From Pelatocladus maniniholoensis HA4357-MV3 (GTDB taxonomy: Bacteria > Cyanobacteriota > Cyanobacteriia > Cyanobacteriales > Nostocaceae): 64,000 bases of DNA. Positions within the stretch are counted from its first letter, which is position 1. Every line of letters begins with the position of its first letter. The notes beneath the pieces were generated by a model, which saw only the letters and a list, made by a program, of their open reading frames with translations, did no database searches and was not told the DNA's origin. Of this stretch, positions 43,021 through 60,716 are shown piece after piece. The stretch lies in assembly GCA_019359115.1 (NCBI GenBank), contig JAHHHW010000080.1:1-64000 (forward strand), written 5' to 3'. The position numbers were made by a program, and so were the translations under genes.

Positions 43021-43190
43021 GGGAGCATCCCAATTTTTTCAAAATATCGTAAAGCAAAGGGTTTAAACTCTTTGCTAATAGCGCAAGTCGTCTCAAGACG
43101 ACTTCATAAAATCAAACAGTCTGCTGAAGCAGACTTGAACTATCAGACTGCGATTTCAATCGCAGGTGTTTTTTGAACTAGTTAGTATTA
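43021..43190. mobile_element. MITE-like element, copy A (three-hairpin type)
   Basis: Left end GGGAGCATCCCAATTTTTTC, then a GGGTTTAAACTC core and three perfect or near-perfect hairpins: AAGTCGTCT/AGACGACTT (about 43085-43104), AGTCTGCT/AGCAGACT (about 43118-43136) and CTGCGATT/AATCGCAG (about 43147-43166), ending GTTTTTTGAACT. The same order of motifs recurs at 49326-49582, where both ends are recognisable. No coding capacity, so non-autonomous. The right terminal inverted repeat is not preserved in this copy. Confidence 0.7.
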
Positions 43191-48240: not shown

Positions 48241-49200
48241 TTAATTGACAATTTCTAATATTCCTTGATCTGCATCTAAAGTTACTTCCACACCGACGGG
48301 TAAAGCTGCATTTGGTGCTTCATGACCAAAGGGTAAATCAGAGACAACGGGAATTCCTAAATCACCCAAGCGATCGCGCAAAACTTCTTCCACACTAAAA
48401 CTAAAAACACCTGCTGGTGGTTCACATTTAGTAAAGCTACCCAAAGCAATACCACGAACTTTAGACAAAGCACCACTCATCCGCCATTGTGTCAGCATTC
48501 TATCGATACGGTAAGGCGCTTCTGTCACATCCTCAAAAGCCAGGATGACACCATCTAAATTCGGTTGAATGGGTGTACACATCAGATGAGTTGCTACAGT
48601 GAGATTTGCTGGTAAGAGGATACCATTAGCGACACCACCTCCCCAACCACAACCTTTTAAAGCATTAACAAAACGTCCTTCTACCCAATCAAATAAGCGT
48701 TGAATTGACCACTCTGGTTCATCAGCGATGGTGGTTAACAAAGGCGCATGTACACCTGAAATCCCGATTTTATAAAGACTCCAGAGTAAAGCAGTGATGT
48801 CGGAAAAGCCAATGATCCATTTGGGAGTGTGGGGAGTGTGGGAAGTGTAGGAAGAAAACGAAGCACTTTGTCCCCCTTGTCCCCCCTGTCCCACATCTTC
48901 CCAATTCCAATTTTCCAAAATCCGGGTACTACCAAAACCACCTCTGGCGCAGAGAATACCACGACATTCGGGATCTTGCCATGCTGATGCTAGGTGATGA
49001 CGACGGTTTTCGTCGTTACCAGCTAGATAGCCCCATCTGTCATCTATCTCTGGGATTATTTCTACTCGATAACCGCGCGATCGCCAAATTTCTACTCCCC
49101 GTTCAAATGTCGTCAGTTCTCGCAAAGCACCGCTAGGCGCTATGACTCGTAGTAAATCGCCAGGTTGGAGAGGTTGTGGAATAATGATTTGAGATTGCAT
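48241..49200 (-). CDS. ldcA: LD-carboxypeptidase (muramoyltetrapeptide carboxypeptidase, family S66)
   Basis: Trims the terminal D-Ala from tetrapeptides in peptidoglycan recycling. The 319-residue protein has the N-terminal LLRVIAPSGALREL, the nucleophile loop GFSDITALLWSLYK with catalytic Ser, a Glu-containing LAFEDVTEAPYRIDRML and the His-containing GHEAPNAALPVGV. About 20 extra residues (Gly/Gln/Ser/His/Thr/Pro-rich, around 108-128) are encoded by STRR DNA (48823-48897) inserted between conserved strands, without breaking the frame. Confidence 0.93.
   Translation of the reverse strand: MQSQIIIPQPLQPGDLLRVIAPSGALRELTTFERGVEIWRSRGYRVEIIPEIDDRWGYLAGNDENRRHHLASAWQDPECRGILCARGGFGSTRILENWNWEDVGQGGQGGQSASFSSYTSHTPHTPKWIIGFSDITALLWSLYKIGISGVHAPLLTTIADEPEWSIQRLFDWVEGRFVNALKGCGWGGGVANGILLPANLTVATHLMCTPIQPNLDGVILAFEDVTEAPYRIDRMLTQWRMSGALSKVRGIALGSFTKCEPPAGVFSFSVEEVLRDRLGDLGIPVVSDLPFGHEAPNAALPVGVEVTLDADQGILEIVN
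48823..48897. repeat. STRR inserted in frame inside ldcA
   Basis: GGGAGTGTGGGGAGTGTGGG units followed by CCCCCTTGTCCCCCCTGTCCC units, the same type as intergenic repeats elsewhere in the window (for example 5998-6020). The length keeps the reading frame and adds a low-complexity loop. Confidence 0.8.
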
Positions 49201-49325
49201 TGGTTTAGAGCAAAAATTAATGTTTATTGTTGGGGATTGGGGATTGGGGATTAGATTTTCATGTCTTGGTTGTGTGATTTATCATATGACCGTCTAGCTT
49301 GAAAATTTGTGTGGGAGTGTAGGGG

Positions 49326-49582
49326 GGAGAGTATCCCAATTTTTCAATATACAGCTAAGGGTTTAAACCAATACGATTCAGTTAAGCCCACAATTCTTTG
49401 TAGAGACGCGAAATTTCGCGTCTCTAACACCAATTTTCTGTACCAAAAATCCTTAACTGAACCGTATTGGGGTTTAAACCCTTAGTTAATAGCACAACTC
49501 GTCTTTATACGACTCAAATAAATTAAGTAGTCTGCTTCAGCGATTTCAATCTTAGGGTTTTTTGAACATTTAGGATGCTCCC
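49326..49582. mobile_element. MITE-like element, copy B (carries a nested MITE)
   Basis: Left end GAGAGTATCCCAATTTTTC and right end GGATGCTCCC (49573-49582), inverse of the left end of copy A (GGGAGCATCC). Same internal order as copy A: GGGTTTAAACCC core, CGTCTTTATACGACT hairpin, AGTCTGCTTCAG, CGATTTCAATC, then GTTTTTTGAAC. The nested element at 49368-49470 interrupts it. Confidence 0.7.
49368..49470. mobile_element. 103-bp MITE with 8-bp target duplication, nested in copy B
   Basis: Terminal inverted repeats CCAATACGATTCAGTTAAG (left) and CTTAACTGAACCGTATTGG (right), a central long palindrome (AGAGACGCGAAA / TTTCGCGTCTCT, about 49402-49426), and identical 8-bp flanks GGTTTAAA (49360-49367 and 49471-49478). 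Removing one flank and the element restores the core of copy A. A second copy lies at 60612-60716. No coding capacity. Confidence 0.85.
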
Positions 49583-49646
49583 GTGTAGGAGTATAGGAGG
49601 AGTCATATTTTCGTGCAAAGGTTGTGGGATTTTCCGGTGAGAGACT

Positions 49647-49950
49647 AGCTTGAAACGATAAACTTCTGGTTTCAAACAAGAAAATCCAAGCTTGAAACAG
49701 GAAACTTCGGGTTTCAAACAAGAAAATCCAAGCTTGAAACAGGAAACTTCGGGTTTCAAACAAGAAAATCCAAGCTTGAAACGAGAAACTTCGGGTTTCA
49801 AACAAAAAACTCCGAGCTTGAAACAGGAAACTTCTGGTTTCAAACAAAAAACTCCGAGCTTGAAACGAGAAACTTCAGGTTTCAAACAAGAAAATCCGAG
49901 CTTGAAACAGGAAACTTCTGGTTTCAAACAGGAAAATCCAAGCTTGAACC
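49647..49950. repeat. 42-bp minisatellite (7 units plus a partial)
   Basis: Seven tandem units with an exact 42-bp period (AGCTTGAAA at 49647, 49689, 49731, 49773, 49815, 49857, 49899), then a partial one at 49941. Each unit contains an inverted pair, GCTTGAAAC and GTTTCAAAC, so each can form a hairpin. Because 42 is divisible by 3 and the unit is stop-free, several frames on both strands stay open, but none has a good start context or upstream coding sequence, so no gene is called. Units differ by a few substitutions (CAGG/CGAG, CGGG/CTGG, AAGAAAATCCA/AAAAAACTCCG). Confidence 0.9.
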
Positions 49951-50070: not shown

Positions 50071-51198
50071 ATGCTTCCAAATATTTCTACAATTCCTCTA
50101 CGCCAAATGGCTTCTGGCGATGTTTTATCACTACAAGTATATAAATTTGTTGGTGCTTATCCAGGCAAAAAAGTTTACATTCAATCTAATTTACACGGTG
50201 CAGAAATCGCTGGTAATGCAGTAATTTATCAGTTAATTGAGTTTTTACTGACGCTCAATGATACTGATTTAGTGGGAGAAATTTGCTTAGTTCCTGTCTG
50301 TAATCCAATGGGAACGAATACTCGTGTGCATCATTTTTCTCCCGGTAGATACTGTGTTTATGAGGCTAAGGATTGGAACCGTATCTTCTGGGATTATGAA
50401 AAAGAAGCTGATGATTTAGCGGTGTTTGCTAAATCTCAACTTCATGTAAAATGGGAGGTCGTCAAACAAAATTATCTTGCCTTAATTCAGCAAAGATTCA
50501 CAGAACTTTTAGAAAAAATTAATTCTCCTAGTGGTGTACCCTATACTGAGATTTTTCGCTACAAACTACAATCTCTGAGTTTAGATGCTAATTACTTAAT
50601 TGATTTACATAGTTCTACCAATCAAGGTTTAAATTACCTTTATTACTTCCCAAATCGAGAAGATAGTGCAAAATATTTTTTGCTCAATTTAGGGGTCGTG
50701 CTTGATCAATATGACGGTGATGCTTTTGATGAAGCATTTATTAAACCTTGGTTAGCATTAGAAAAAACTTTTCAACAACTAGGAAGAGATATCAAGTTTG
50801 ATGTGGAGGCCTGGACACTGGAATTAGGTATGGGTATGCAAATGAATCCTGATTCTGTGGCTAAGGGAATTTTAGGAATCAAAAACTATTTAGCCTCTAA
50901 AGGAGTGCTAAAAATCACTGACTTTCCTTTAGCAAATAGTGAAAATCACGAAATGACTTTTAAAGCCAGAAGTCAGATTCAGAAATATTATGCTTCAGCA
51001 GGTGGAATGATTCAATCGAGAGTTGAATTAGGAAGTGAAATTAAAGCTGGACAGAAACTTTATCAAATTCTGAGTTTCAATAAAGCAGGTAAGCTACCTC
51101 AAGTAATTGATATTTATTCTGAGCAAAATGGACTAGTGTATGATGTGGCAACAAATCAAGCTGTGAATGAAGGGGAGTTTGTACTGGGAATAATTTAG
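50071..51198 (+). CDS. Succinylglutamate desuccinylase / aspartoacylase family protein
   Basis: The 375-residue M14-type zinc hydrolase has NLHGAEIAGNAVIYQL (HxxE zinc ligands, about 39-54), a third ligand in LIDLHSS, and a C-terminal beta-domain (VDIYSEQNGLVYDVATNQAV). Family members remove acyl groups from amino acids or peptides; the substrate here is unknown. It starts at ATG 50071 beyond the repeat region. A strong terminator follows (51236-51269). Confidence 0.88.
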   Translation: MLPNISTIPLRQMASGDVLSLQVYKFVGAYPGKKVYIQSNLHGAEIAGNAVIYQLIEFLLTLNDTDLVGEICLVPVCNPMGTNTRVHHFSPGRYCVYEAKDWNRIFWDYEKEADDLAVFAKSQLHVKWEVVKQNYLALIQQRFTELLEKINSPSGVPYTEIFRYKLQSLSLDANYLIDLHSSTNQGLNYLYYFPNREDSAKYFLLNLGVVLDQYDGDAFDEAFIKPWLALEKTFQQLGRDIKFDVEAWTLELGMGMQMNPDSVAKGILGIKNYLASKGVLKITDFPLANSENHEMTFKARSQIQKYYASAGGMIQSRVELGSEIKAGQKLYQILSFNKAGKLPQVIDIYSEQNGLVYDVATNQAVNEGEFVLGII

Positions 51199-60611: not shown

Positions 60612-60716
60612 CCAATACGGTTCGGTTAAAGATTTTTCGTCATAATTTTGTCATGTAGAGACGCGAAATTTCGCGTCTCTACACAAGGTTTTTGGTCTTA
60701 TCCGGAACCGTATTAC
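60612..60716. mobile_element. 103-bp MITE, second copy
   Basis: CCAATACGGTTCGGTTAAA at the left, CCGGAACCGTATTA at the right, and the same internal palindrome (AGAGACGCGAAA / TTTCGCGTCTCT, about 60656-60681) as the element at 49368-49470. Sits between convergent-strand gene ends. A target duplication cannot be assigned with certainty here. Confidence 0.75.

Follow-up and report, generated by a model that had tools for sequence, protein, structure and literature searches.

At this locus one MITE interrupts another, which raises the question of which element arrived first and which transposases moved the two. The reading that we favour, with a probability of about 0.93, is that two unrelated non-autonomous MITEs moved in succession, an ISKra4-type element first and then an IS4-type element mobilized in trans, with a 10-bp stagger. 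A nested MITE pair drawn from two known transposase families is an ordinary type of event, here well resolved. The window, by which we mean the whole 64-kb stretch of DNA that was analysed (41% G+C), comes from contig C80 of a 6.7-Mb draft assembly of 167 contigs (G000), and the nest has a between-gene position, with an LD-carboxypeptidase gene on one side and an AstE/AspA-type gene on the other. The relevant features are as follows.

43021-43178, plus strand: copy A, an outer-family element that has lost its right end and in which the 10-bp site GGGTTTAAAC is uninterrupted
48241-49200, minus strand: LD-carboxypeptidase gene, transcribed away from the nest
49317-49324, no strand: left copy of the outer target duplication, GTGTAGGG (duplications in this family are 8 or 9 bp)
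49325-49582, no strand: outer MITE with ISKra4-type ends (GGGAGAGTATCCC..GGATGCTCCC), split by the inner element; its core matches copy A and the family in the genome
49359-49368, no strand: left copy of the inner target duplication, GGGTTTAAAC, 10 bp, within the outer palindrome CTAAGGGTTTAAACCCTTAG
49369-49469, no strand: inner MITE, 101 bp, IS4-type ends, non-coding; siblings at C167:82666 and C38:14383
49369-49386, plus strand: terminal repeat at the left of the inner MITE, CAATACGATTCAGTTAAG, with a 1-base difference from the IS4 end CAATACGGTTCAGTTAAG
49401-49426, no strand: central palindrome of the inner MITE, 26 bp, perfect, TAGAGACGCGAAATTTCGCGTCTCTA
49452-49469, minus strand: terminal repeat at the right of the inner MITE, CAATACGGTTCAGTTAAG, exactly as at the ends of full-length IS4 elements
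49470-49479, no strand: right copy of the inner target duplication, GGGTTTAAAC, 10 bp
49583-49590, no strand: right copy of the outer target duplication, GTGTAGGA, 7/8 matches to the left copy
50071-51198, plus strand: AstE/AspA-type gene
60612-60714, minus strand: second inner-family MITE of the window, diverged (81% over 103 bp)

The original prediction, that another repeat is split by a short element bearing terminal inverted repeats and a palindrome at its centre, describes the locus well. Both elements are short and non-coding, carry terminal inverted repeats, occur in multiple copies and have target duplications, and both share their ends with an element of autonomous type: the inner MITE with IS4 elements in related genomes, the outer MITE with an insertion sequence (IS) on contig C18 whose gene is damaged. 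With the insert and one copy of its duplication subtracted, the outer MITE is 147 bp long. It had been placed at 49326-49582, which needs only a shift of its start to 49325, and its imperfect duplication (GTGTAGGG/GTGTAGGA, 7/8) had gone unreported; the match of its core to copy A at 43021 holds, at 79% over 68 bp and 80% over 50 bp. The outer element is the older one, because the inner element splits it, with 10 bp of outer sequence duplicated in the process. Decay of the outer copy, whose left end reads GGGAGAGTATCCC against the family's GGGAGCATCCC, and the near-identity of the inner element to its siblings agree with this order, which is also the one first proposed. Adjoining the nest, at 49647-49948, is a tandem array of a 42-bp unit in 7.2 copies (AGCTTGAAACAGGAAACTTCGGGTTTCAAACAAGAAAATCCA), and related repeats of the GTTTCAAAC type come after outer copies elsewhere (L043, L048).

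The length of the inner element (CAATACGATTCAGTTAAG...CTTAACTGAACCGTATTG, 101 bp) and that of its target duplication have to be determined together. Since the target site is palindromic, the reading is ambiguous at the window site alone, and other copies were used to settle it. The original prediction correctly saw GGTTTAAA on both flanks and took it for an 8-bp duplication around a 103-bp element, and within the window this can be defended: a 103-bp unit is indeed bounded by GGTTTAAA, and its terminal C and G could be counted as inverted-repeat bases. Across 305 distinct candidate end pairs from all fetched loci, aligned on CAATAC..GTATTG, exact duplications of 10 bp occur 81 times and of 9 bp once, but those of 8 bp, like all others of 6-8 and 11-14 bp, never do. 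CAATAC is moreover the terminus of full-length IS4 elements, which have 10-bp repeats, and a duplication of 8 bp is thus very improbable. The inner-family target duplication is 10 bp, in the window GGGTTTAAAC, and it takes in the outermost C and G, leaving an element of 101 bp. Many of the 305 pairs are accidental pairings of ends, so 81/305 does not measure how often copies are intact, and the 224 pairs that lack an exact 10-bp duplication comprise many such pairings, with decayed true copies among them. Earlier subsets gave 51/151 and 71/238. The 81 exact cases, 59 of them MITE-sized and 22 IS-sized, also supply the further copies with duplicated flanks on which the original prediction depended.

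Both families are abundant in this genome. For the pattern of the inner ends (≤2 mismatches) there are 163 matches against 9 for a reversed control, and the outer end pattern, in the same test, 276 against 5; these figures count ends, not whole copies, and chance is excluded as the source of either pattern. A BLAST search of the genome with the inner element gave 58 matches at E<=0.001 among those listed (40 of 216 first-look candidates were scored), some of which are one place read on both strands. Compared with the window copy, the sibling at C167:82666 has a single changed base in 101 bp, and an exact 10-bp duplication of its own, TGTTTTAATT, surrounds it; the one at C38:14383, broken at its right end, agrees at all but 1 of the first 97 bases. 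From the congener G002, 37 paired-end copies of the inner family were fetched. The nest junction WAAGGGTTTAAACCAATACG had 0 matches in genome_contigs, a collection that may omit this genome, and the exact nest was therefore not seen elsewhere there. Nesting within one superfamily also occurs: in L075 and L076 (G000:C110 and C113) a CAATACTGCT-ended MITE lies within a CAATACGGTT-ended one, with an exact 10-bp duplication, AGATCGATTT, in L076.

An autonomous transposase with the same ends as the inner MITE had been anticipated, and such an element is present in related genomes: the inner MITE has its 18-bp ends in common with insertion sequences of the IS4 family (subgroup IS4), whose duplications are 10 bp and not the proposed 8 bp. 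Profile searches with PF13808 and PF01609 of this genome and its congeners led to L220, a 1473-bp IS in the congener G001 that has CAATACTTTTCGGTTAAG ends and whose transposase is an IS4-family protein. Used as a query, this transposase has a match at E<=1e-40 in 47 of the 145 genomes of the family. Paired CAATAC-type ends were present at 17 of 29 loci fetched from this family-level search, 12 of the 17 having exact 10-bp duplications (counted by hand). A scan of 63 loci in named genomes found both ends, by pattern match, in 24, which are 1452-1581 bp long; 15 of these have exact 10-bp repeats and 9 lack an exact duplication. Both ends are exactly CAATACGGTTCAGTTAAG in 12 of the 63, and an IS of this kind in Nostoc sp. 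LEGE 06077 is 1488 bp long with CAGTATAAGC on each side. The partner L253 is 1802 bp long, above the reported size range, with an extra end copy inside, and the element in G001:C137 (transposase gene at 275-1498) and L340 is without a matching duplication. The transposase scores 202.9 bits against NF033592 IS4 (cut-off 115). In L220 and L257, PF13006 Nterm_IS4, PF01609 and NF033592 all score above cut-off in one reading frame, and the Y-2-R-3-E-6-K motif, YHQRWEVENTIDELK, is present in both of these proteins, the two that were tested; some other homologues contain stops.

In the accessible part of De Palmenaer et al. 2008 (PMC2266710), subgroup IS4 is defined by ends of the form -AATR--------WTW----, a length of 1400-1650 bp, a duplication of 10-13 bp and the YREK motif. 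The full-length partners belong to this subgroup: their ends fit the pattern, their duplications are 10 bp, their lengths 1452-1581 bp, and they have YREK. The inner element of the window differs in having no transposase and in having just its terminal 18-19 bases in common with the full-length elements that were compared, to which its interior has no significant match; an origin by simple internal deletion of an IS4 element is therefore not shown. Judged by these ends, IS4 elements of subgroup IS4 are the likely parents of the inner MITE.

A transposase search of this assembly found no intact IS4 transposase of the inner type, giving no more than a fragment of 76 residues on C53 (75%) and one distant match, on C62 (24%), and the same search of G002, an N-gapped assembly, gave only distant matches, the best at 32% identity. 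At C13:5254 of this genome there is a truncated left end that is 93% identical over 122 bp to an IS end in G001. Isolated 18-bp IS4 ends, at L078, L192 and others (G000:C131:52636, C84:30079), adjoin non-MITE sequence such as GGCTGAAAG; their sub-terminal bases resemble full-length IS4 elements, and they are possibly relics of a lost parent. Lone inner ends fetched from this genome and three congeners included no full-length element and were mostly truncated MITEs or isolated ends. As to other candidates, ISAs1 was rejected as inner parent when PF13808 had no match in this genome; the first PF01609 search of it returned 15 matches, at none of whose loci are there paired CAATACG ends; and an IS4-type element of a congener, whose ends are CATTGGTCACAAGTTAAG and whose duplications are 9 bp, was discounted as a relative.

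The outer family has ends GGGAGCATCCCAATTTTT and GGGAGCATCCCAAAT and four internal hairpins. Among 38 distinct end pairs, exact duplications of 8 bp were found in 19 and of 9 bp in 7, with neither in the rest. An IS of 1784 bp at C18:10365-12148 of this genome has the same ends as the outer MITE and TATTGATT on each side, and its transposase scores 253 bits against NF033572 ISKra4 (cut-off 205), over a match that holds 1 TGA and 1 TAG. The portion of Guerillot et al. 2014 (PMC3942029) available to us reports a programmed frameshift in some ISMich2-lineage elements of the superfamily, and part of the apparent damage to this transposase could therefore be natural. A congener copy, G002:C15 (L281), has outer-type ends and ACAAAAAG flanks around an interior that is mostly N. 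The likeness to the ISKra4 family (NF033572; PMC3942029, as far as that source was accessible) consists in ends that are those of the damaged IS in the same genome, an assignment at family level that spans the ISKra4, ISMich2 and ISAzba1 lineages; the outer-family duplications measure 8 or 9 bp, and the outer MITE differs in being non-coding, about 147-173 bp long and filled with hairpins. The ISKra4-type IS on C18 is, by these shared ends, the likely parent of the outer MITE.

Some outer copies have been rearranged further. Two of them, L058 and L285 (G000:C81 and C66), have the same insert of ~105 bp (GGGTCTTCCAC..GACAATGCAA, with 4-bp flanks) in the same inter-hairpin spacer, which may reflect independent insertions or the transposition of a composite. 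At L047, L052 and L055 the outer-family hairpin cluster is without one or both ISKra4-type ends, at L055 because of an insert on contig C44 described below; the cluster may be a module in its own right, or may have lost its ends.

Succession by transposition would have proceeded in three steps. A MITE with ISKra4-type ends (GGGAGCATCCC) would have inserted between the two genes, giving an 8-bp duplication. An IS4-type transposase would then have moved the 101-bp MITE, with its 18-bp ends of subgroup IS4, in trans. A 10-bp staggered cut in the older element, at its first palindrome, would have left GGGTTTAAAC on both sides after repair. Both sets of ends, both duplication lengths, the IS4 and ISKra4 elements with the same ends and the near-identical inner siblings are readable in the sequence itself. 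The IS4 and ISKra4 transposases were likely the movers, and probably acted by cut-and-paste. With both families and the central palindrome present in many copies, recombination between dispersed repeats could in principle have assembled such a nest with no transposition at all. A precise element, an exact 10-bp duplication that follows the family rule and an uninterrupted counterpart at copy A are nevertheless the signature of insertion, making assembly by recombination highly unlikely.

The insertion site is a 20-bp perfect palindrome of the outer element, CTAAGGGTTTAAACCCTTAG, which invites the idea that palindromes are preferred targets, drawing insertions through hairpins or cruciforms and turning palindrome-rich MITEs into landing pads. 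Inverted repeats with arms of >=9 bp hold 4 of the 81 sites, where flanking positions predict 0.62 (Monte Carlo p 0.001), but the other 77 lie outside such palindromes, and with shorter arms there is no longer a significant excess (4 against 2.45 expected for arms >=6, p 0.23; 10 against 6.99 for arms >=5, p 0.15). The arm threshold was moreover picked after the data had been seen, the sites are a non-random sample, and intergenic space is common to palindromes and MITEs. Individual loci do point the same way: an outer copy at G000:C44:11750-11979 (L079 2751-2980) has a different insert within the same GGTTTAAACC palindrome, and two inner-family copies of G002 lie in outer-like sequence recognised by eye, L160 in a hairpin and L173 at an end. 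From the three tests, palindrome preference is a possible, weakly supported lead and is not established, and we consider it rather improbable that the insertion-site palindrome was a preferred target. The broader proposal, that hairpins in ISKra4-type MITEs attract IS4-type and other MITEs and that nests would accumulate by target choice and not by chance, we regard as slightly less probable again. The insert at C44:11750 is roughly 110 bp long (TACCAATTC..GAAATGG) and has TTTAA on both sides.

Successive transposition, whatever drew the second element to its site, assigns two large cyanobacterial MITE families to the IS4 and ISKra4 transposase families, with target lengths of 10 bp and of 8 or 9 bp. 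These lengths are a dependable rule for annotating both families and for ordering insertions. The inner copies, of low divergence in a genome in which no intact parent was found, offer a small test case of MITEs that outlive or borrow a transposase. Nezha and other MITEs of Anabaena and Nostoc (Zhou et al. 2008; Wolk et al. 2010), so far as the accessible descriptions go, are likewise short, palindromic cyanobacterial MITEs, a likeness by description only. In a literature search whose scope stopped short of the key work on insertion sequences and small repeats in Anabaena, neither family was named in any paper found, and we make no claim that they are unpublished.

The central palindrome of the inner MITE has relatives outside its own family. 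A closely related module, GTAGAGACGCG..CGCGTCTCTAC, occurs at 34 places in this genome. In the part of PMC3733652 open to us, GTAG-15 dimers are reported inside longer palindromes in A. variabilis, and the window palindrome resembles these GTAG-tagged REP palindromes, compared by description only, in starting with GTAG. The mark of a GTAG-REP is an unpaired GTAG at one end of the hairpin. The window palindrome has GTAG on one side and CTAA on the other, with TAG pairing; at the 34 places of the related module GTAG is fully paired with CTAC. A link to the GTAG-REP families may exist and is a lead only. IS4-type MITEs carry the GTAGAGACGCG..CGCGTCTCTAC palindrome at their centre, an element with TACCATTTCAC ends contains it as well (in L152, within a MITE), and the loop of the palindrome sometimes holds a TAGCAAGATCCC..AGGGTA insert.
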